Source: Hyperoplus lanceolatus
Taxonomy: Eukaryota > Chordata > Actinopteri > Uranoscopiformes > Ammodytidae
Assembly: GCA_026929865.2 (NCBI GenBank)
Contig: CM049407.1
Location: forward strand, 18,527,501-18,591,500
Direction of reading: 5' to 3'
Length of the DNA stretch: 64,000 nucleotides
The notes below the pieces were generated by a model. It saw only the letters and a program-made list of their open reading frames with translations. It had not been told where the DNA came from and did no database searches. The position numbers were made by a program, and so were the translations under genes. This document shows positions 3,349 to 53,515 of the stretch, piece by piece. The first letter of the stretch is position 1. The number at the start of each line of letters is the position of its first letter.

Positions 3349-6130
3349 ATGGATAATCAAGAATCACCAAACATCTTCCATCAGTTGTGGAAGCGGACCC
3401 AGAGGAAGTTCAATGATTTGGATGTGAGTATAAGCAGCTTCACTGATCTCTGACCTGCCTGCTTTGCACATCTGTAGGTCTTTCAGAAATGATGACGATC
3501 TTAAAACTTCTCCGACATTTGATAAAAAACAGTTTTTTTCATATTTTTTCAACTCAACTGCGATTATTCCCCGAGTGACTCAGTTGTAATGTAATGTTTG
3601 TACTTATATTTCCACAACAGACTGGGAGCCGGTGGAGTCAGGAGAACCCTGAAGGCTACAACACCAGTGAGTCTCAGGTCCTGCATATAGAGAGAATTGA
3701 GAGGGCTGTCTCAGCTCACAGGGCAGAGAGGCTGTGCTCTACCAGGAAATCCCAAAATGATGCTGTCCTGGGGAGGCTGGGACTCTCCGTTCAGGACGGT
3801 GCCCTGCCTTCCCTCCCCAGAATAAGCACCAAACCCCCTATGCAAGCCAGGAGGATGAGCCCTCTGTCAGATGGAGCTTTTTTGAACAAAGAGGACATGG
3901 AGAGAAACCGGAGGAGTTTGGATAAGGAGGACAATGACACCTTCTGGGAAAAGGTTCTTATTGGCAGTCAGATGGCTTCACTTGCATGTAAGGAGGCTAA
4001 GATGGCGGTGGACAGAGAAGGCAGCCCGACTGGCTCCATAGGTTATATGTATACCTCTGCTGATGCTCAAACACCCAGTGAGCTGAGGGCCATTCCTCTA
4101 CTCGAGGTGACACACTTCAAACCATCTCCGCCTCCTCCTCGAGGAGCTGCCCCTCATTCCTGCAGAAGATTGTCTCGCCTGCCTGTGTTCACTGCCAAAA
4201 TCATTGGAGAAGGTCAGTACCTTTATAAAAAAAACACTGCTAAAGTTAACATATTGTGCTCATTTTCAGTTTCAAAACTGTAATTTGGGTTTCTACTACT
4301 AGAAACTGTTTTCATGGTGTATATTGCTCCAAAAAATTATGCCCATTTTTTGTTTATTCTCAACAGAAAAAGAGATGGCCAATGGATGTAGGCTCCAATC
4401 GGCTACGAGTAAAGTCCAGGCTATTATGGACAAACTGGGGCGTATCCAGCGCAACTACGTCCCTGTCCCCCGACCCCAAGAGGTTGCCAAAAGGAGCCAT
4501 GTGCTGGAGGCTTTGGCCCAAACCCCACCAACAGTTTCTCAAACCAAGAAAAGAAGAACTAAACCAGGGACCATCTTGCGCCCTGTAAAGCGCATCCCCA
4601 GTACTTCAAATGATAGACAGGTTGAGCTGCAGCCATTAACCAACCCTTGGGAGAGCCTGTCTCTGTTCTTCCAGCTACTCTCTTCAGACGACTGGTAAGA
4701 CACTGACACCAGAGAGCAGACTCTTTTTTACTACCTCAGCGTATTGATCTTTAGTTGTTATGTTGCAGATAGCTAAGTTTAATATCTAATTTGTCAGTTT
4801 AGGCATTAATTCGCCCTGCCCAAAGCTCCTTTTCCAGAACATATAGGTGGAGTCAGCGATTCTTGTCAAAATCACTTATGGTCAAAATCAGTGATTATCT
4901 CCTCGCAATCCGCTAACTGTCGGCACCGTGTTTGCACTTCGAAAAATTGTAAGGAGATATTCACTGATTTTGATAAAAAGTGATATTGACATCATGCTTC
5001 CCGCCAAAATCACTGACTCCACCTTTAAATGAGGAGCCAGTAAAGATTGTATAAATCAGCATAACCTGCACGTGTGTAGGGGCTATACATTTGTTCTTCC
5101 TAAAGTATTGTATAATGAGGCTTATTAATTGAACCATGCAGGTCGAAGAAAATGACCGGCTTGATGACCCTGCAGGCTCTGGCACGGTACCACTCAGAGT
5201 ACCTGACGAACAAACTCCATGAAGTCTGTCTGGTCCTCATTGAGGAGGTATAGTACACACTTTCCTCCTTGTATCTATGTCTCCATGTGGTTCTCATTCG
5301 CCCAACATGTGTTAACGCTACAGTTTGGTCTGTTGACTGATGATGGTTATCCTATCTATACAGGTGAAAAACTTGCGCTCATCAGTGGCCTGTGCGGCTA
5401 TGGACGTGTTAGCTGAGCTTTACGTTCAGCTCCAGAAGACCATGGACCCAGAGGTGGAGAGAACGGGCAGAGCACTGCTCCTCAAACTGGCACAAACTAC
5501 AAACGACTTTATCATCCAGCAGGCCAATCTCGCACTAGATGCCATGGTGGAAAACTGCAGCCATGGTCGGATCATGGGTGCCCTCTTGAACACTGGGATG
5601 AGGTGAGAGGGGAGAAGAGACAAGGCTGCATTTGTTTTTTTATCAGCATGAAAAGGCTTGAATGAAGTGAATTGAAAAACAGTCACTCGATTTGTTTGTC
5701 ACGTAGGCCTCCTTGTCTTTGTTCTTCCTCAGCCACCGTTGTGTCGCAGTCAGAGGTAGCATGGCCCAACACCTGCACCAGCTGGCTAACAGCATCGGAG
5801 CAGCTCACATCCTGACAGCGGGAAAGAGCTTCACCATGCGCTTCCTTATAGCGGTCTCTAAAATGTGTGTGGATGCTGCACCACAAGTGAGGTGGGTTTA
5901 TCAAGTTCTACATAGTTCAGTTTACAAACTTCAAACTTGTGACTTGTAGCACTGTTTTTATTTTCAACATTGTGCTTAATGATAAATGTACTCCTCCTCA
6001 CAGGCACTACGGGCAAATGATCTTCCACGATCTGGCTCTACACAAAGACTTTCTGAACTTGTGGACAAAGATCATTCCAGAAAAAGAAAGAGGGTCGCTG
6101 GACAAGATCTTAAAAAATATCAAGAAGTGA
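3349..6130 (+). CDS. TOG-domain protein, TOGARAM/crescerin-like, seven coding exons
   Basis: Coding exons are 3349-3423, 3621-4212, 4367-4694, 5142-5247, 5364-5602, 5733-5891 and 6004-6130. All introns are GT-AG and the phases agree, giving 541 residues. The first about 320 residues are polar and low in recognisable structure. The last about 220 form one alpha-helical TOG array, starting at PWESLSLFFQLLSSDDW and including the heat-repeat helix EEVKNLRSSVACAAMDVL. This resembles the TOG3/TOG4 domains of TOGARAM1/2 proteins, which bind tubulin and act in cilia. TOGARAM proteins usually carry four TOG domains, so this is a short, single-TOG relative. The ATG at 3349 is chosen because it opens a 25-codon exon ending in a good donor. 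A CLASP or XMAP215 fragment is less likely. A polyadenylation signal lies at 6189-6194. Confidence 0.82.
4250..4335. repeat. Fragment of interspersed repeat family C in an intron
   Basis: Inside the second intron of the TOG gene. It shares a run around GGGTTTCTACTA-CTAGAAAC plus TTTTCATGGTGTA with the reverse complement of 35640-35720, and more weakly with 45214-45240. It is a short relic of a fish repeat that also occurs at those two sites. Confidence 0.5.
4845..5024. mobile_element. MITE family E, copy 1
   Basis: A 180-bp element in the third intron of the TOG gene. Terminal inverted repeats read AGGTGGAGTCAGCGATT and, at the other end, AGGTGGAGTCAGTGATT. The right side abuts TTAA; the left flank is ATAT, so the duplication has decayed or was mis-copied. 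The interior matches the element at 39191-39365 around TATCTCCTCGCAATCCGCTA. Confidence 0.7.
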
Positions 6131-13089: not shown

Positions 13090-13096
13090 GGTGCGG

Positions 13097-13189
13097 ATGA
13101 AGAAACAAATTTTGCTTTTATTCACATTCAGAGGACTAGTGAGCAAAGGGAAAAGGGGCAAAAAGAGAAAATGGATAAATTCATATTGA
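13097..13189 (+). promoter_or_regulatory. Overlapping upstream ORF of sat1
   Basis: A 30-codon ORF opens at 13097 and ends 19 bases inside the sat1 coding sequence, in a different frame. Its peptide is hydrophobic then basic: LLLF, then RGLV, then KGK, then KKRKW, ending INSY. From memory, the human SAT1 leader carries an overlapping uORF with the same order of motifs (LLLLF, RGLV, KGK, RKW, NS). SAT1 translation is known to be controlled by polyamines through its leader. Conservation of the peptide between fish and human is inferred from recall and needs alignment. Confidence 0.7.
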
Positions 13190-14287
13190 GGAAAGCTGAA
13201 CCCAGTGATGTGCCAACTATCCTACGACTAATAAAGGTGAGCCCAATGTTAAAGTTGGCTATTAATAGCAAAACATATTATTACTGTTATGAATTTGAGT
13301 TCCATTACAAAAAAAATAGATCTTGTTTCGGTTTCTTTCTTTATGCCTTCATAGGAACTTGCTAAATTTGAAGAGATGGAAGAGAAGGTTGTGCTGACTG
13401 AGAAAGGTGCTTTCATTTCACCCACTTAGTGTACATTGGATTGAACTATGTTGAACTATAAGTGTAGCCTACTATTTAAAAATACATGTAACTGTATTTT
13501 CAAAAACAAAAAGCCTTCCCACACATTCTCATAAAATGTCCCACTTGTAGATCTACTTGAAGATGGCTTTGGTGATCATCCGTTCTACCACTGTTTGGTT
13601 GCTGAAGTCCCAAAAGAGCAAATGAGCTCAGAGGGTAAAAACACATCCCTTACACAATAACTACACAGTCTGAGAGATATTTCTTAAGAAATAGGTTCAC
13701 CCTTCAAATTTGACCACTCATGTGTGTTGATTTCTTCCAGGCTACACTGCGATTGCCTTCGCCATGTACTATTTCACATATGACCCTTGGATTGGAAAAC
13801 TGCTGTACTTAGAAGACTTCTATGTCATGCAAGACTTTCGGGGTGAGGTTGTCGACAGTATATAATGGTTGTTAATAAGTTCCTGATTAAATGTTTTTGT
13901 GGGGCTTTTATTTTTTTTTTTCTTGTTATGTCACTGTTTTAATCACTCATTGTACATTGAATCTTTGACCAGGTCTTGGCATTGGTTCACAAATCCTGAA
14001 GGTTCTGAGTGAGGTATGTTTGTTGATGTGCAGTTTAAGCTGCTTTGAAACTTAATTTCAATTGTACAATTGTACCGTCTCTGTGCTTTAGTTTTATTTG
14101 TTCTTATTTTTTTCCCCTATAGACGGCAGTGAAGACTCGTTGTAGCGGCATGCACTTCCTTGTGGCAGAGAACAACACAAAGTCCATTGAGTTCTACAAG
14201 CGAAGAGGAGCGGCGGATCTCTCCTCTGAGGAGGGCTGGCGTCTTTTTGAGATAGAAAAGGAGGACCTGTTGAAAATGTCTGCCTAA
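13171..14287 (+). CDS. sat1: Spermidine/spermine N1-acetyltransferase 1
   Basis: Exons 13171-13236, 13355-13406, 13551-13634, 13741-13842, 13973-14013 and 14123-14287 give 169 residues (human 171). It is a GNAT-fold enzyme of the cytosol that transfers acetyl from acetyl-CoA to the N1 position of spermidine and spermine, the rate-limiting step of polyamine catabolism and export. The acetyl-CoA loop RGLGIGS is at residues 101-107. Signature blocks [31 protein letters not shown] and [16 protein letters not shown] are all present. The start is the only ATG giving the family N-terminus ([13 protein letters not shown]). SAT2 is less likely given the neighbours prdx4 and zfx. Translation is probably limited by the overlapping uORF at 13097. 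Confidence 0.97.
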
Positions 14288-18119: not shown

Positions 18120-21100
18120 ATGGATGAGGACGTCACCAGGCTTTCCATACATTCTGAAGAGCCTAAAATAATATTACACGGATCGGGTAAATAGCCATGC
18201 TCCTATTCATGTGGGTTTTATACACACAGGGTTTGTCTCTGTGAGTTCAGCTAACTTAGAATTTGAAGAAGCGGATTCTGTGAACGGACAACTTGAACTA
18301 TTTGAATTGCATAAGCAAAGTCTTGCTAGGAGCAAGATGTTACTGTTGTTGGAATTACGGATGGAATTCTATCAGAAGTTGAATGTGCTACTTAAAACAT
18401 CCTCACACAATTAATGCCGTCTGGTTGACCTTGGTGTGTGTGTGTGTTTGTGACCCTGCTTCTTCCAGATGACGGTGGTGCTGGCGGGCAGGAGTTTGTT
18501 GTGGAGCTTCAAGAGACTGTGTTGGTGTCGGAAGGCGAGGGGGAAGGCATGGCGGTTCATAGGTTTGCCCCAGAGGAGCTAGTTATCCAGGATGCTGTGG
18601 AGGACGTAGTGTCTGAGTATGTGCACTGTGACGAGGACGAAGACGTGGCTGTAGAGACCTGCGTGATGGCTCTGGAGGGCGAGGAGGAAGGTGTTGCCAT
18701 GGGAGACATCCCTGAAGACGGGCTGGACTCGGAGCAACAGGAGGACGACCAAGATGGCTGTGGAGATTATCTAATGATATCCTGTAAGTTTCCTGCTCTG
18801 CTCTGCTGGAATTAGCTTCAAATGGACCATTGCTCCTCTTGAAAGTAAAACTTGAACCATACTTGGTGCGTCTTTGGGCGGATCCAAAATGTATCCGCTG
18901 ATAAGTGTAAATTATGCCTTTATATGACAAGTCATGTTACAATATAGGCTATCTGTTAGGATGATTGTAATTCACAAGTTATGTTAAATGTCTAGCTCTA
19001 ATACAGTAGTTGGTTCATTTATTAATTACATGTTTGTTTTTTTACATCGAAAGCTTCAGTCATGAACATTTATATAACAGTTACAAATTAAGGGTGTCTT
19101 TTTGATAGGGAATTAAACAATTGTTTTTTATTGTCTTATATATTCACAAATTTAACAAGATGATTTGCGTATTTATTCTATTTCAAAGCTCCAAAAACAT
19201 AGCCTGGCTCCGCCCGCCCGCCTACTTCCGGCCAAATTTTATTTTCCTTTCAGTAGTCAGTCTGGGTGTACAGCCCATTTCCCAGTTTTGCCGGAGATTC
19301 GACAGCCGGTCCAATCAGCGAACAGAGCGAGAGGCTGAGAACGATGACGTCGAAGTCGCGCTCCAGTTTCAGTTGCCAGAAGCCGGCTCATGACACACGT
19401 GACGACCAAACGTTATGCGATTGGTTGGCTAATCCAGAGTGGCACTGGGCAGATCCAATAGTTTTAAACTTTAACAGACACCCGCCTCCATGAGTGAACG
19501 TTTGCCAATTACAGCACTGCCAGACCTTCTGTACAAATGAAATGAAGTACGATGGTCTGGTAGCACCACGCTACCAAAAACATGACCTAAAACTAAAAAG
19601 CAATCCTAAATAGATAAAGAAAAATAAAAAACCTTAAATTCTTTTTTTTTGCGATTTCACTTATTTCGGCTGAAACCGAAAATTATGTTTTTGCCATTTT
19701 CGGTGGCCAAACATTCGGTGCATCCCTTCTAATAACATAATAACATCTATGCTCAGTGAGGAAATGCTGTTGTTTTTGAAAAAGACGCATATTAAACAGA
19801 TCTGTTACGTAGTCATGTTGTTGTAGATATTATCCAGCAATGACTGCCACCTTGTACATTTTCTCCATTTATTGTCAGAATTCAACATGGACTCAGTGTG
19901 TTAGTGGAAATGCTGCACACTGGTTTTTGATTGATTTGACATTGTTTTTAGCCACTAATACTGTAATGGTAACTAACCCGATATAAGAGGCTATGTGATG
20001 TTTAAAGCCCAGTTCAGACCAAAGATTTGCCTTGCTACTGCTTGCGACGAGACGGTTTTAGAACGTCGCGGGGGATAAATCGCAGCAGTGTGAACTGCTC
20101 GTTGCAAGGAGTCGCAGAAGATTCAACATGTCAAATCGCAAGGTCCAGTTTTAGAACGTCCAGGTCAGCTCGTTGCAAGCGGTTGCGAGCAGTTGCAGTT
20201 GCGTCTCGTTGCAAGGTGAATCTTTGGTCCGAACTGGGCTTTAAAAGACAGACTGTTTGAAATAATGGAATGTAAACTCAGTTTTGATTTGCTCTCAAAA
20301 TTTACCTTGTAAAGTTTATTTTGTGTACAGATTCTTAATATCAATTGGTTTAATAGCATTTTTTAGTTATACTGACATATTAAAATAAAATCCCAGTTGC
20401 ATTTTCCCTAAACATAAAAACTGGTGAGTTAAAAAAGCCCATCTTAAATGACATGTGACTCGTGTCTCCTCCACTAGTGGATGAAGCTGGTAAAATGGTG
20501 TCTGAGGATGGAACAGAGGTGACAGTGGAGGGAGCTGTGGAGGACCAGGAAGTGGAGAAGGATGAGGACGGGCAGGAGGTGATAAAGGTCTACATCTTCA
20601 AGGCCGATTCTGGGGAGGACGACATGGGTGAGTAGTAGTTATAGTACGAGGAATTACTACAAAATATACTGTTAGATGTTGGCTTTTTTACATTATCAGC
20701 AATCCAAGTCCAATCTGGATCCAAGTCACATTAATTAATTATATCATAAGAAAGACATTATTGTTGTTTGTTGTACTGGAAAATATCTTGACTATAATAC
20801 ATTATTCAAGGCCTTTGTTGTCCCCATTGCTTTCCATCACACTTTTATAATTTAATTTGAACGATTTGGTACAAGATTTGAAATGGTATTAAAAGGTGTT
20901 GTAAAAAGTCTTGAACATAACTTGAGGTTAAACCTGCATAGAACCAGAGGTTTACCAAGTATTTGTGGCGAGTTGTGCCAAAATGTTGAGGATTTAAAAG
21001 TTATTTTTGTTCTGCAGGAGAATCGGTTGACATCAGCGATGGAGAAACGGAGTTAACGGAGTCTTCGGGCCAAACGCTCAGAGAGAAGATGGTTTACATG

Positions 21101-22663
21101 TCTGTCGGGGACTCTCATCATAATCAAGGAAACCATGGTGAATACTTAAGATCTAGCGAGCGGTGACAACTGTCATGAAAGTAAACGTCATTACCATTTT
21201 AGTTTTGTACATGTTGGGCTCATCTACAGGTGGGTCCAAGGTGACTGATGAGGTTTATATGGAAGTGGTGGTAGGAGGGGAAGAGCCAGTAACTCACGAC
21301 CGCTCGTATGACAGCGTGTCTCTAAGCAAGGACTTCATGCCTGTGGCCTGGGCAGTTGCTTATGGTCAGCACCCCCTGTCTATTAAATTGCTTTTCAAAC
21401 AACACTGGAAGCTTGTGCAACCACCTTGCTCTGCGTGTCTTGGCTTAAGCTTTTACAGGAGTTGGTTTGGTATTTTTCTGTTTTTAATATCACTCTGTTG
21501 CTCTCCCAGGTGCGGACGATAGCGAGAGTTGTGAAAACCGAAACGGGGCAGCAAGCGCATTGCTGCACATCGATGAATCAGACGGAGTCGATGAAATCAA
21601 TAGACAACGCAACAAGAGCAGGAGACGGTCGGAGCCTCGCCAGGTGCAGACAGGTAAGGACAACACAAAGTTAAAGGAGATGCCTTTATCTCATCAAACA
21701 ATGAAGAAGGCCTTTGGATCGTACAGCAGAATGAATGCTTAAAGGATGAATGCTCCTACGGACTGTATTGTTCTCAATGTCATAAGTTGATGATATTTTT
21801 TATTGAATGGATCAAAAACAAATGCACAATAAATGATATTAAGGCCCATAGTGGTTTTTAATTTGCAGTCTAAGGAGCACTCAAACCTCCAACAATTTGA
21901 ATTTAACTAAATAAGAAAAGAAAGCAACATATAGCGTTTGTCATCTAGTTGCCCCATCAAGGTTTTAGGAGCATATTGTTTGTCATATATCTTCTTTGTC
22001 CAGCTGTTTTCTTCCACTAGTTCATCCTGTTTATTCTGCAAAAGATTATTTTGAGGTTAACCCCATTTAAAGCTGGGGTGGAGGATTTGGGTAGAAAATG
22101 GCAGTTGGTATAGAGATTCGAATCCAAATACCTCAACCGCTCCACTTGTTCTCTTTGGTCCCTCCCTGACATGCTCTGCACCAACAAAGTCGCGCCAAAG
22201 TGAATGGACAGTCCGAACAGCCAATAAGAACAGAGAATCGGAGCCTTGCTCTGATTGGTCAAAGTGTACAGCTCATGTTAACTTTGACCAATCAGAAATC
22301 ACATACCCCAGCTTTAAGTACCTTCCACTCACGGCACCAGGAATGGAATGCTATGCTAATAGGGAAGAATAACACGGTCATGGTCTGAAGGTGTGGCTAA
22401 CTTACTGTGTACCGCACCTAATAAGATGACAGAATATGTCAATGGAATTGACTAATAGAAACAAGAAAACTCATGCTTTAATCAATGAAACCATTTTGAT
22501 AAAGTGAACCGTAAGGACAACTTTGAATAACATCTACATACACTCCTGCCTCGTGCTACCTCTGAATCTTCGTAGTTATTGATTTGGTTGTTAGTCCCTG
22601 ATTTCAGATCAGATTGTATATATAATTTACGCTTGAGTACCACTGCATTTTCTGCTCAGTATG

Positions 22664-22697
<34 letters not shown>

Positions 22698-24243
22698 ACT
22701 TATCTAACCTTACTGATACCGAACCATAATGTGTGATGGTCATTTAATTTATTGATATATATTCCAAATATTAAAATCCAGGCCAAACATGTCACTAATA
22801 TCAATTGTTTGTATCTGGATTTTTGTTGGTTAAGAATATGTGTGCCTAATATTTTTTTTTTTCCCAAGTTAACTTTATGAACACCACTATGGACACGTTG
22901 TAATTTCTGTCTCCCTCTTGTCATTTTTCTCTTTAGCAATCATCATCGGTCCATACGGGCAGCCTCTCACAGTTTACCCCTGCATGCTATGTGGTAAAAA
23001 GTTTAAGTCCCGGGGCTTCCTGAAACGCCACACCAAGAATCATCACCAGGACGTTCTGACCAGGAAAAAGTACCAATGTACAGACTGTGAGTTCACCACC
23101 AACAAGAAAGCCAGCCTCCACAACCACATGGAGGTGCACGCTCTGAGCAGCAAGGCCCCCTTCGAGTGTGAAATGTGTGGCAAGGAGTTCCACCAGCAGG
23201 CAGCGCTGTTCTCCCACAGACTGCAGCACCACCACCGAGAGCCCAAGAGCCAGCCGCCTCCGACTCCCAACAAAATGCATAAATGCAAGTTCTGTGACTA
23301 TGAAACTGCGGAGCAAGGACTGCTCAATCGGCACTTGTTGGCCGTTCACAGCAAAAGCTTCCCCCACATCTGTGTGGAATGTGGAAAAGGCTTTCGACAT
23401 CCGTCAGAGTTGAAGAAACACATGCGCACGCACACAGGCGAGAAGCCTTACTCCTGCCTGTACTGTGACTACAAGTCGGCCGATTCCTCCAATCTCAAGA
23501 CACACATCAAGACTAAGCATAGCAAAGAGATGCCATACAAGTGTGAGCGTTGTTTCCAGACCTTTGCAGAGGAAGAGGAGTTACTGCAGCACGGACTAAC
23601 ACACGAGGAGAATAAGACCCACCATTGTGCCCACTGTGATCACAAAAGCTCCAACTCCAGTGACCTGAAACGCCATATCATTTCTGTTCACACCAAGGAC
23701 TATCCACACAAATGTGCCATCTGTGGGAAAGGCTTCCACCGGCCATCGGAGCTGAAGAAGCACTCGGCATCCCACCGCACCAAGAAGCTTCATCAGTGTC
23801 GGCACTGCAACTTTAAAAACGCAGACCCTTTTGTTCTCAGTCGTCATATCTTGTCAGTCCACACAAAGGAGCAACAGGAGTCTCCTGAAAAGAGTGAGGC
23901 AAAGAGGACAGAGACGCACACTCCTGCTGCCACACCTAAAAAGTCTGCACCTAGCGGCTCCAGCAGCAGCAGCTCTGTGCCGCCTGGCAGAGTCAGTGCA
24001 GCTAGCTTAGCCAGCAGCGTGACTGTAGTTATGGGCAAAGGACAAAAAGAAAGGAGAATTTATCAGTGCCAGTACTGTGACTACAGCACCGGGGATGCCT
24101 CGGGCTTTAAGCGACACGTCATTTCCATTCACACAAAAGACTATCCGCACCGCTGCGATATCTGTTCGAAAGGCTTCCGACGACCCTCGGAGAAGAGCCA
24201 GCATATCACGCGCCACCACAAGGACGTGGTGCAGGCCGACTGA
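18120..24243 (+). CDS. zfx: Zinc-finger transcription factor ZFX, 12-finger form
   Basis: Exons 18120-18186, 18469-18783, 20478-20627, 21018-21137, 21230-21364, 21510-21653 and 22937-24243, all joined in phase 1, give 745 residues. The acidic N-terminal activation region carries family blocks such as [37 protein letters not shown] and ALLHIDES. A basic nuclear-localisation-like stretch ([10 protein letters not shown]) precedes the finger array, which lies wholly in the last exon and starts at C326. Twelve C2H2 fingers are visible. Finger 11 of the standard 13 is absent: finger 10 (HQCRHC) is followed by about 65 residues of Ser/Ala/Pro/Glu-rich linker and then the finger-12 equivalent (YQCQYC). 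ZNF711 is the closest alternative, but ALLHIDES and the prdx4-sat1 neighbours favour zfx. ZFX acts in the nucleus at CpG-island promoters. The 3' UTR runs to a signal at 25771. Confidence 0.95.
19191..19582. mobile_element. TAGCCTGG-terminus DNA transposon (family G), copy 2, with 9-bp target duplication
   Basis: Body 19200-19573, 374 bp, in the second coding intron of zfx. Starts TAGCCTGGC and ends CCACGCTA. Perfect direct repeats CCAAAAACA flank it at 19191-19199 and 19574-19582. It shares the start and a GACGTCGAAG block with the element at 11504-12075 and is shorter. Non-coding. Confidence 0.82.
19636..19728. repeat. Probable hAT-type transposon end
   Basis: The segment TTCGGCTGAAACCGAAAA through CATTCGGTGCATCCCT resembles the subterminal repeats and terminus of common fish hAT elements, whose ends read AGGGATGCACCGAA. 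Only one end is seen. Assignment is from memory of fish repeats. Confidence 0.4.
20002..20244. mobile_element. Fold-back element with 30-bp inverted repeats between TTAA sites
   Basis: Body 20006-20240, 235 bp, in zfx intron 2. Both ends read AGCCCAGTTC-GACCAAAGATT with about 3 mismatches in 30 positions, flanked by TTAA at 20002-20005 and 20241-20244. The interior has repeated CGTTGCAAG and TTTTAGAACGTC motifs. A TTAA target points to piggyBac or Kolobok machinery. Confidence 0.85.
22067..22317. mobile_element. MITE family A, copy 1 (uninterrupted)
   Basis: Body 22071-22313, 243 bp, in the intron before the finger exon of zfx. Ends are AGCTGGGGT and ACCCCAGCT, with TTAA at both sides. It matches 45823-46243 along most of its length (for example CCTCAACCGCTCCACTTG and AATAAGAACAGAGAATC). 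This copy keeps the internal TTAA that is the insertion point of family B in the other copy. Confidence 0.88.
22666..22695. repeat. CA microsatellite
   Basis: About 15 pure CA units in a zfx intron. Confidence 0.95.
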
Positions 24244-31845: not shown

Positions 31846-33635
31846 CAGCAGCCTCATACAAAAACAAAACATAAGTGTGCATTTGCCTGCGATTTATGCA
31901 TTGTTACAACTAGTGCAGAAAGGGTCCTATTCTTGAATCACCGTATGCTTTTTCATAGAGAGTTAACTGTAAAGGTTATGTGTCAGAAACGATAAAGTGA
32001 ATGGCAGAGAATTCCCATTTAATTTTTTCGACTTATAATAACGCTGTAAATCACAGCAGAGAAAATGTGACTGCATATTTCACTAACAGCTCATTGCCCA
32101 AAGCAGTCTTCGTGCCAAGGAGCTCCAGGTATGCACACACACTGTACAGGAACTTAGTATGTATACTTAACTGTACATTCATTGTGGGAAAGAGAAACAA
32201 CATGTATTAAATCATATCAACAACAGAACAAATAGAAATTAAACATGCATTGTTCAATCTTTATTAGCAGTTTGGCTACAGACTACTTAGGCCTCACTGT
32301 GGCACTATAATCAGGCGTGCAAAAGAGTTAAATTTGCTATGCTATTAAGTTCATAAGATGTTGATAGACTAGGGATGGTGCTACGGTAAGAACTCATGTA
32401 CCACCCTTTACCTCAATCTGATCAGTAGTTGTTTCAATGTCTGAGATAAACTGATATCATCATCTGTATGCACTGACACAAGTGGAGCAAGACAAACAAA
32501 GGTTGTCTCTACCATATATAATGTCTATGGTCTCTACACTCAGAGATAAAAATATACAGACTGTCCAGAGGGTGGCACTATAGGAAAGACCCTTCATGCC
32601 TCCATACTATCCATGCTCCAGACCCACTTGCATGGGATTGAGGAGTGTATACGCCAAATATTGATACTCAGCTTAAAGACAATATAATGAAGGAAATGTA
32701 TTGATTTAAACAGGCTAATCAATTGTCCTATCCATTATGTACATTATTACTGATAATGGAAACAATGGGGAGTGAAACGCTGGAGCCAAGACATTACAGG
32801 ATAGTAGGCTATACATCTAGGTTATGTTCTACATAAAGGTGTACTTATACACATTAAATAGTATACATTACATTGGTGGGAAATGATTGTGGCCTTCAGA
32901 TTAATATAAATAAATAATATCTGTAACCATTTACAGAAACAATCCTGACATGTACTAAAACCAAACGTGTAGGTCTGTGCAGTGTAGAAGGCTGGCACTA
33001 TGAGACAGCAGTGGGGGAAAACAACAACATTAGATTAAAAAATCCATAACAGAACACTGCTCACTCTAACCCTGAGTAAATCATAGTAGTAAATATGACT
33101 GAAGCCACTCCGGGAAGATACCGTATGACTGTGTGCAACCATTAGCGACTCACAATAACTTCCCACCAACTGCATTGTTTTCCAGGGGTTTAATGGTCAC
33201 AATAACACCTCACAGAGCTGAACTTGTGGCTGTTGTTCTTCTATTCACATAAACCCCACAGAGTCACTGCTCATTTATTACTACATTTTTAATTACATTT
33301 TTTAATTTACATACATAGTCAACAGTAGCCTGTTTTGATTTTAGCATATATATGTACAGTAAAATGGAAGTGTCTTCTTGTTTTGCAGAACATTCCAGCC
33401 CCAGAAGAAAGTCTTTCTAAAACAGTCAACATTAGCATCCAAATATAAGACAGTAAGTAATTATAGAGCACAAATGTTTTTAAATAAAATAAATAAGAAA
33501 GAAATCAATAGGCATTGAAGGTCATCGGTTGATGAGTCATAATACATATATGAGATGGAGTTTCACTTCACACATGCTTTGTTAGCAGCCTGTTACCAAT
33601 GACGTTACAGGACTACTACAGAGTACAAAGCAAAA

Positions 33636-36600
33636 CTAAACCAAGTCAGTGAGGTTGGAGCGTGGAGGAACCGAGGCGGCATCTGGCATGGTGAGGAACT
33701 CAACCCAGTTCTGGCAGAAACCATGTGAATAGTCTCCTGTGTCGACCACCAGCCCCCACAGGCGGCTCCGGCCCGTTTTGTTCCTCAGAGCCAGCAGAGC
33801 CTCCCGCTCCGTCACATTGAAGCTGATGTTGAGAACTTGAGCCACCAACAGGTAAAACAATCCACCAGTCACGATGCTGCTGTACCAAGCACAGGTGAAG
33901 CAAAGTGCTGTGCTGTGAACAAAGAAGAAAAAGTGAATGTAACATACCAGCAATATAGATTAATGTTTGAAATGCATTTTAAAGAACAGTATTTTAAACC
34001 TTTTTTAGTTTGCTTATATATCAGGATATTCACTCTGTTGGCAAAATAAATTGAAGTACTGCTATTCACTAAAAAGCACATTAAGGTATGACAGTACTTT
34101 CGGCCCTTTGGTCTCTCTATCCTAAAATAGTCTTTCGAAAATCATATTCCCCACTGTCGGCTGTTCACTTTATCTGAATGTTTGTAAAAGCCTACTCCTC
34201 CCATGTAACCATAACCCTGTTGTTTCACTTTTAGGATCACAGTTCAGGTTGAACAGATTATCAGTTTTTACCAATCTGCATTTGTAGTAAATAGGGCACA
34301 ATCCAAGGCAAAACACAAGGAATGCTACAATGTCTTAAATGTGTATAGGCACTTTGCCATGAATGCTGTTATTGCTAATTTCCAAACACAAAATTAACAA
34401 AGGAAGGAAACATATACATAAATAAAGTAATACAATTGCAGAAATTTAACCATTACACAAACTGAAAATGTGAACAGCTTCTACAGTACAAACAGATGCA
34501 AGTCTACAAATAATATTTAAACTGTTTCAAGCGATGAAATAAATACATGACACACTGTTAGATGGGGAAAAAATATCTTGTTTTTGAATAATTTAGGTCC
34601 TTTCCAAAGCTATATGTCTGACTATTTTGGCCAATACTCAGTCATATCAACCAGGAAAGTATATTCTCACATTTACGTTTTAACATTACTTTAAAGAACT
34701 TTTATAACTTGGACTTCTTATCTACTCGTCCATTTAGTGTTATAGTCCCCTGCAGCCATGGTGGAGAGACAAGAATACAAAAGAGTTTTGGTACCTCGAC
34801 TGGCTGTAGACGCCAGGGCAATAGAAGAGAGCTGTCATTAGATACTGTCGAGGACAGAGGCTGCAAAGAACCAAACTGATCCCGTACAGGGAGGTCAACA
34901 CGAACACAAAGAGGGTCAGCAGGAAGCTGCGATGGTTGGCCTGTCCAACACAGCTGTTCATCCTGCAGCACCTCAACACATACACACATAACGCAGGAGA
35001 AAAAAATTAAGTTGCAGTCAGACAAGATCAAATCAGGAACACACAGTATGATATAATGATATAAAAGTAGTTTTAGAAGTTCACATTTGAAGGGTTTGTT
35101 TAGTTTTTCTACTGAGAAAACATTAAGTGAGTGGACCCTCTGCTGAATACATGATGGTTGGTGTGTAATTACATGGCAGTTGTCTAATCAATCATAATTC
35201 TATATTTAGTTTCATGACCTGTTATGAATGCACAATATATAAAAGTACCGATTTAAAGGTCACCTTTTATGCAAAATGCACTTTTTCATGGTTTTTCAAC
35301 ATTAAAACAGGTACCTGGTGTGACTACAGAATCAGTATGAGAAAAAACAATCCTCACTCTTTTTCTACACCTTTCTGAAAACCTGCTTTCAAAAAACCCA
35401 GTCAGATTTCTTTCCCCATATGACGTCATAATGTCAGAAGCCAGACCCTGCTCATTACCAACCTAACTTAGCTCTACATCCACCTGTGATAAGCATACCA
35501 CCCCTGAATCTAAGTAGAAGTTAGATTCACACCGACATTTAGATTCAGGGACCGATCAGAATAGACAGGGCTTTTTGATAGGCGGGGCTTGAAGAAACAG
35601 GCTCTCCAATGGAGGAGATTTAGCAATGGCACTGCGAGAAATATAAATTGTTTCCTGGATACTACACCATGAAAAGTTTCTAGTAGAAACCCAACTTACA
35701 TTTTGAACTTGAAAAATGTGCTTAATATGTGACAAAAATGATAGAAACCTGAATATTATATTCAACCCACCAGATACAGTGGTGGTCCAGACGATGCACA
35801 CAGGCTCCGCACGTCCGACAGTGTCCGGCCCGTGGGGGTCGCACTACTTTGCACACGGGACACTGTCTCCGTTTCACTTTCTGGGCCTTTTCAGGTCCAT
35901 TTAGGTGTGTGGAGTCCTTGTTAGCCTCCTCAGTGTGACTGTGTTCTTCATGCAGGTAAGTGGTCACAAACCCCGGTCCCCTCTTGGTGTGAATGAGAGA
36001 GAGGATAGTGGCAACCATCCCTGTGGTGGCTGTACACACCTGCAGCAGGCTGATGTCCCCGCGAGGTACAATCTCTGTGATAAAAAGGTAATACATGTAG
36101 AACAGGGAGTAGAGCGCCAGAGTGAGGAAGAAGAGGGTGCGTCTCTTCTTTCGGTGGGTGGCGTAGTAATACCACAGCACCAGGCCGGGCAGAGCTGTCA
36201 GGATGATGACACCCAGCAGGTAGTGCAGCGCCGCAACCCGCAGCAGGACAGGTAGCAGCACTAGGGCCGGGAGCATGGAAATCTCTAGCTTGTCAGTCAC
36301 CGCTGTAAGCACAGGTGACTGCCATCCACTTTTAGGTGGTTTGTCTTTCAGCCACCTACATAGAAAAGTGGTCTGTAAGTCATAATTTTAAAATGGCTAA
36401 TAGGTAACAGTTGGTCTTTCGTTATTGAAAAGCTATGTTATGCTCTTATGCTGCAAATATTTTTCAAATTCAGGATACAGTGTAGCTTACATTGAATATC
36501 GTCACCCTCATAAAATAATGGCCTAAGTCACTTTTTGGCCAAAATGATTTTTTTGCTTAAATCAACTCCTTATCGTCACCCTCTTAACCATTTAACTCCC

Positions 36601-39600: not shown

Positions 39601-41070
39601 AATGTCCTTGGTAGCCTGCCACACACGTCAAACGACCTGAGCCTCCTGAGGAAGAAGAGTTTGCTCTGACTCTTCCGGTAGAGGGCCTCTGTGTTGTCTC
39701 ACCAGTCCAGTTTATTGTTGATGTGTACTCCAAGGAATTTATACGAATCCACCGTCTCTATTTAAACCCCCTGGATGGAAATAGGGGTTGGGGGCTTCCT
39801 CTTCCGGCGGAAGTCCACCACCAGCTCCTTGGTCTTGCCGATGTTGAGTTGGAGGTGGTTCTCCTCTGCCCATCTGACAAAGTCCTCCACCACACCTCTG
39901 TACTCGTCCTCCCTGTCCTCACTGATGCAGCCCTCGATGGAGGAGTCGTCTGAGAATTTCTGGAGATGGCAAGTTCCAGAGTTGAAGCTGAAGTCAGAGG
40001 TGTAGATGGTAAAGAGGAAGGGTGAAAGTACTGTTCCTTGGAGTGCGCCAGTGTTGCTCATCACAACATCTGACAGGCCGCTCTGCAGCCGCACGTACTG
40101 TGGCCTGCTGGAAAGGTAGTCACCAATCCAAGCAACCATGTTGGGGTGTACCTGCATTGCTGAGAGCTTCTTCTCAAGCAGGGGAGGCTGGATGGTATTG
40201 AACACACCGGAGAAGTCGAAGAACATGACTCTCACTGAGCTCCCCGGCTTCTCCAGGTGTGAGTAAGCCCTGTGCAGCAGGTAAATGATGGCGCCGGCCA
40301 CGCTGAGTTGGGCCTGGTACACAAACTGCAGTGGGTCCATGGAGTCACACATCTGGGGCTTAAGGTGAGCCTTTCGAAGGTCTTCAACTGGGGCACCTTC
40401 TTCAGCCTCAGGGAAAGGTTGAAGAGGTGTTGGAACACTCCAGCAAGCTGTCCGGCACACGCTTTAAGCACCTTGGGATTGATGTACTGTTCCTTTCGAG
40501 CTTGCCCTCCAGCCTCTCCTTATAGCATGTTTTGGCCGCCTTTAGTTCCCTTCTCAGTTCCTTCTGAACTGATTTTACCCCCTCTCTGTCTCCTGCCATA
40601 AAAGCCCTCTTCTCCCTGTTGAGTATGTTTTTAATGTTCTTATTGATCCAGGGTTTGTTGTTAGGAAAACAGCGGACCTTTTTTTTTTTTTTTTTTTTTT
40701 TTTTTATACTTTATTGTAGGATCATATAGTATTCCTAGTAAGTTATTTTTATATTTACATCATCCTACAAACATTTTTTTTTTTTATAAATGTAAACAAT
40801 ATAAATAAATGAATAAGTAAATAAATAAACAAAAATAACAAAATGTAGTAATGATAAATTATATATATATATACATACACATACATACATATACACACAT
40901 ATATATATACATACATATACATACACACATACATACACACACACATATACACACATACATATACACATACATACATATAAACACACATACACATATGTAC
41001 ACACATATGTACATGTACATCCGCATATGCCTAGGCCAAAATATATTCATCAGTACTACATATAATTAAA

Positions 41071-48401: not shown

Positions 48402-53515
<5,114 letters not shown>

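Follow-up and report, generated by a model that had tools for sequence, protein, structure and literature searches.

A fish zfx with a 66-residue linker in place of zinc finger 11: predicted consequences for DNA recognition

The window analysed here, a stretch of 64 kb on contig 13 of an assembly of 806.7 Mb and 527 contigs, contains a zfx gene in which a linker of 66 residues is found where the eleventh zinc finger (ZF11) is expected. The explanation that we favour, and consider probable, is that of a genuine, functional zfx in which ZF11 has been replaced in frame by this linker, leaving a two-finger reader of the core motif whose binding would be weaker and less extended. An intact-looking vertebrate zfx without ZF11 would reveal what this finger contributes, and would test whether the fingers upstream depend on being held in a fixed register with the core.

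The zfx gene, its finger array and the znf711 paralogue

The predicted gene model comprises seven coding exons on the forward strand and encodes 745 amino acids from ATG to stop, with no internal stops. Exon borders were picked by eye and then checked by a script, which found a GT donor and an AG acceptor at all six introns. The first coding exon (18120..18186) starts with the ATG at 18120, begins with MDEDV and ends in frame at its GT donor. Exon 2 (18469..18783, AG/GT borders) encodes the acidic activation region and is assigned to PF04704, the Zfx/Zfy transcription activation region; taken alone, it scores 19.1 bits against this family, under the cut-off of 25. Exons 3 (20478..20627) and 4 (21018..21137) both have AG/GT borders, keep the frame and fall in the part of the spliced protein that matches PF04704; the open frame containing exon 5 (21230..21364, DEVYMEV...) matches this family at 1.8e-10. 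Exon 6 (21510..21653, AG/GT borders, in frame) carries the basic stretch KSRRRSEPR, a candidate nuclear localisation signal that lies between the acidic region and the fingers. For neither exon 5 nor exon 6 was a second copy found in a whole-assembly search. Once spliced, the gene matches PF04704 with 203 bits (8.7e-60, cut-off 25) over positions 87-328 of the 328-residue N-terminal part searched. A match to this family is also found in the exons of the znf711 paralogue on contig 8. The last coding exon (22937..24243) holds the C2H2 fingers and the stop codon, and lies inside a single stop-to-stop frame (22873-24243, +), as expected from the original prediction that this exon is one open frame. 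Judged from its sequence, the window gene is apparently a genuine zfx orthologue of a ray-finned fish, functional and with an intact gene model; gene content and repeats of the window likewise suggest a ray-finned fish. Within a zfx intron, the stretch 20001-20245 is likely a small transposable element: by eye, one end is over some 25 bases nearly the reverse complement of the other.

A Pfam scan of other frames of the window gave matches above the cut-off for three out of ten, all on the reverse strand: a DHHC palmitoyltransferase frame (35728-36387), a frame with an ATP synthase alpha/beta N-domain that by eye looks V-ATPase A-like (52946-53218) and a reverse transcriptase fragment (39765-40463). 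The frame 13090-13362 (+), for which Pfam gives no match, presumably resembles the start of a spermidine/spermine acetyltransferase; in human, SAT1 lies near ZFX.

The pattern scan finds twelve fingers with Cys2His2 ligands in the last exon. It had been proposed that twelve fingers are present and that finger 10 is followed by a linker of about 65 residues and then by the equivalent of finger 12. This is confirmed, with a gap of 66 residues. According to the finger scan and its composition, the Ser/Ala/Pro/Lys/Glu-rich linker spans 23863..24060 (+); the span 23860-24065 given earlier overlaps both flanking fingers slightly. ZF3 (23161-23235, +) and ZF7 (23536-23604, +) are intact. ZF10 (23791..23862, +), of the even type, is identical to ZF10 of znf711 at 18 of 24 residues. 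Beyond the linker come the equivalents of ZF12 (24061..24132, +; even type, 20/24 residues identical to znf711) and ZF13 (24148..24219, +; odd type with an RR pair, 21/24 identical), whose recognition helices, DASGFKR and RPSEKSQ respectively, are the same as in znf711.

The alternation of odd and even fingers is a trait of the ZFX family. When each of the first ten fingers of zfx is set against the average of the odd fingers and against that of the even ones, itself excluded, all ten fall into the class of their own position, some of them narrowly (by matches, 2.0 vs 1.8 for finger 2, 3.5 vs 3.0 for finger 4 and 3.25 vs 2.6 for finger 7). The first finger after the linker is even (4.2 vs 1.6) and the second odd (4.8 vs 1.4), and the order of the array reads O E O E O E O E O E (66) E O. 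Since the alternation is broken only at the 66-residue linker, one odd finger must be missing there. Seven of the eight inter-finger linkers from ZF4 to the end have five residues and the eighth has 66; the three preceding ZF4 have 8, 7 and 14 residues.

The znf711 paralogue of the same assembly (contig 8, piece L009, 3083-4300, -) keeps ZF11-13, and its ZF11 lies between its own ZF10 and ZF12 (piece L002, 1494-1426, -). This finger and the odd/even alternation within zfx itself are two independent lines that bear out the claim that zfx has lost finger 11, as opposed to having merely gained an inserted linker. On the sequence comparison the absence is a derived loss, since there are 13 fingers in human ZFX and ZFY, and only ZF3 and ZF7 have been lost in ZNF711, as described in PMC7293018. 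The contig-8 gene has 11 intact fingers, with ZF3 and ZF7 degenerate, and is named znf711 because the same two fingers are degenerate in human ZNF711 (PMC7293018). Unlike this paralogue, the window gene has intact ZF3 and ZF7, which identifies it as ZFX rather than ZNF711. Over the alignment of their last exons the two genes are 66% identical. The most interesting feature is that the finger losses are complementary in two paralogues of one genome, zfx being without ZF11 and znf711 without intact ZF3 and ZF7. In zfx, the absence of ZF11 means that the tandem ZF11-ZF12-ZF13, the standard ZFX-type recognition module, is not found; orthology to zfx is thus claimed here, and the standard DNA-recognition module is not. 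The open frame of the znf711 acidic exon (L009, 5792-6814, -) is long and repetitive, with VEGLE-type repeats and long runs of His.

Probable DNA recognition in the absence of ZF11

Published promoter binding of human ZFX had been placed in fingers 11-13 by the original prediction, in agreement with PMC7293018, where ZF11-13 are described as necessary and sufficient for promoter and chromatin binding in cells. For ZFY, PMC10287918 predicts F12-13 at positions 1-6 (the core), considers it very likely that F11 reads a 2-base TA at positions 7-8, and attributes to F7-10 a contribution at positions 9-18 that is made only with an intact core. The two papers support the view that finger 11 is part of the DNA-recognition module. 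They report Grants 2010 differently: PMC7293018 cites it for the in vitro binding of an AGGCCY oligonucleotide by ZF12-13 of mouse Zfy2, and PMC10287918 for fingers 11-13 of mouse ZFY being enough for RGGCCT. These conflicting citations leave the sufficiency of two fingers uncertain, and in the passages used neither paper names a construct of its own with ZF12-13. Searches of solved structures brought up C2H2 proteins of a generic kind and a single-finger peptide from ZFY, with no ZFX array among the best 60 of 194 and the best 60 of 149 matches.

The suggestion of the original prediction that this copy may bind DNA differently is a reasonable one. Since the helices of ZF12-13, and most of their residues, match those of znf711, reading of the core is probably kept, and these two fingers would still bind an AGGCC-type sequence. 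The two bases that follow (7-8) would no longer be contacted by ZF11, and ZF7-10 would be uncoupled from the core, their register being broken by the linker. The protein would then read the core with two fingers held on a flexible tether, and its binding is predicted to be weaker and less extended than that of znf711.

The main rival to this explanation accepts that the loss is real and proposes that promoter binding by zfx is essentially abolished, fingers 1-10 and the activation domain being retained for another job while znf711 serves promoters. We consider it unlikely, although by no means negligible. It is favoured by the requirement of human ZFX for ZF11-13 on chromatin (PMC7293018), by the early in vitro work in which, as reported in PMC10287918, ZF11-13 and not ZF12-13 were sufficient, and by the retention of ZF11-13 in znf711 of the same genome. 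However, ZF12 and ZF13 still share 20/24 and 21/24 residues and the same helices with znf711, a comparison in which this sole reference does not allow changes before the loss to be separated from changes after it. The RR of ZF13 is, moreover, kept, and by its position is presumably the Arg pair that is mutated in parathyroid adenomas. That pair, near the C-terminus, is of a kind conserved in lamprey and from zebrafish to human according to PMC4278311, which argues against abolished binding, as does the in vitro binding of mouse Zfy2 ZF12-13 cited in PMC7293018.

Beyond the two-finger core reader favoured here, we tentatively suggest, as a possibility held with less confidence, that in this fish lineage the two ancient paralogues may have split the DNA recognition of the family, with znf711 alone keeping ZF11-13 and zfx reading the core through two tethered fingers, its upstream fingers no longer bound to the core. 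If true, this split would offer a test made by nature of whether recognition in long finger arrays is 'dependent'.

The linker and other readings of the locus

The linker contains 14 Ser, 7 Lys, 7 Ala, 6 Thr, 6 Glu and 6 Pro among its 66 residues, and neither Cys, Phe, Trp nor Tyr; 51 of the 66 are disorder-promoting. A charge/hydropathy rule places the linker as a whole on the disordered side, although its second half lies just across the line to the folded side, and from its sequence the linker is probably disordered. Of the six frames, its own has the highest codon likelihood, and the synonymous codons it uses suit the gene's codon usage more closely than do 98.6% of 5000 uniform synonymous recodings. 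Third-position GC is 0.485 in this frame, compared with 0.628 for the remaining coding sequence and 0.615 for one of the linker's other frames, and from composition alone the chance of finding no stop in 66 codons is 5%; given these figures, there is no more than moderate support for the linker being constrained as coding sequence. A run of six serines (23959-23976) includes four consecutive AGC codons, a possible source of linker growth by slippage; Tandem Repeats Finder called no array over this run, and a separate repeat search brought up only repeats between fingers. Two S/T-P-x-K/R sites were located by a script at linker positions 7 and 24 and are by eye SPEK and TPKK; it is speculation that they may be CDK-type sites.

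As to the origin of the linker, a decayed finger was rejected: against ZF11 of znf711 the linker scores 19.0 as protein (shuffled mean 19.4) and 14.0 as DNA (shuffled mean 15.5), while in the control ZF9 of zfx scores 100. The lack of leftover similarity means that the finger was replaced, or decayed beyond recognition. A transposon or a copy of another sequence was likewise rejected, the linker DNA having a single match in the whole assembly, namely itself, with a best Pfam E of 0.26, below the cut-off, and no array according to Tandem Repeats Finder.

Might the locus have 13 fingers that the assembly misrepresents? We regard such an assembly or sequencing artefact as very improbable, given that the frame stays open across the linker into intact ZF12-13 and that the window contains no N and no ZF11. 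The linker, whose only match in the assembly is its own locus, is moreover no copy of other assembled sequence put in the wrong place. A pattern scan of the six frames of the linker finds no encoded finger. Over the whole window, a loose six-frame C2H2 scan returns the 12 zfx fingers and nine other pattern matches, none of them ZF11-like; the full set of four ligands is present in two of these (31888-31956, +, and 5442-5501, -), which are taken for chance. When ZF11 of znf711 is compared by tblastn with the 64-kb window, it matches ZF5 (2.6e-9), ZF9 (2e-6) and ZF7 (6e-5) of zfx and, more weakly, ZF6 (0.08) and an unrelated stretch at 53310-53366 (0.10). The 15-mer quoted in the original prediction matches ZF5, ZF9 and ZF13, and then KGFRRQS at 2625-2645 (E 0.064), where the in-frame reading shows no finger.

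The original prediction had also raised the possibility of a diverged duplicate. Teleosts have undergone an extra genome duplication, which makes it conceivable that a 13-finger zfx lies elsewhere in the genome. The whole assembly was queried with the finger array, the ZF10-13 stretch and the zfx-specific N-terminal sequence, and the best 97 of 1182, the best 150 of 1787 and all 26 candidates, respectively, were scored. Among these candidates in the assembled sequence, only the zfx locus and znf711 rise above the generic finger background, the best other place reaching 42% identity (2.0e-29) for the array and 39% (1.8e-16) for ZF10-13. The zfx-specific N-terminal stretch is found on contig 13 only, the lone match on contig 8 being the shared start of the finger exon. 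A second zfx with 13 fingers was thus not found among the candidates scored, and neither a 13-finger array nor a zfx N-terminus turned up elsewhere; znf711 being the only other family member found, the idea of a diverged duplicate is not upheld, and we hold it to be as improbable as an artefact. Searches of prokaryote and viral sequence collections found no relative.

Least likely of all, to the point of being barely credible, is that the linker is partly an intron or that ZF11 is supplied by an alternative exon. Under the splice weights applied, the linker has a donor-like site at 23893 with a score of 1.5, comparable to the six real zfx donors (1.2-7.4); downstream of it, however, the acceptors in the part of the exon examined reach at most 0.1, against 1.0-8.6 for real ones. 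Of the eight best-scoring splice pairs, seven use this donor and all shift the frame into stops, the remaining pair is in frame but cuts into ZF10, and ZF11 sequence is absent from the window. With these weights no splicing pattern emerged by which the finger could be hidden, nor any ZF11 match in the window, in keeping with what had been predicted.

Comparison with known systems

Finger loss in C2H2 orthologues is common, and the surprise of the present case is its position inside the recognition module. In flies, according to PMC4351887, 24.8% of non-reference one-to-one poly-finger orthologues have lost or gained a domain, figures subject to the caveat of poor assemblies, and 75.6% of these events lie outside or at the end of the canonically linked array. 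Searches of the open-licence literature, mostly at the level of titles, yielded general papers on finger loss, but neither a report of a ZFX-family member without ZF11 nor, among the titles listed, one on fish zfx.

The gene resembles human and mouse ZFX/ZFY in its PF04704 region, its C-terminal C2H2 array, its intact ZF3 and ZF7 and its ZF12-13; it differs from them in having no ZF11, a 66-residue linker between ZF10 and ZF12, and 12 fingers instead of 13. ZNF711, in human and in its contig-8 counterpart, belongs to the same family and is the reverse of the zfx described here, having lost ZF3 and ZF7 and kept ZF11-13. BCL11A and IKZF1 are C2H2 factors whose finger clusters are split by long linkers. 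Like this zfx, they have two finger modules with a long fingerless stretch in between; however, they stand outside the ZFX family, whereas in zfx the split is secondary and would have been made by the loss of a finger.
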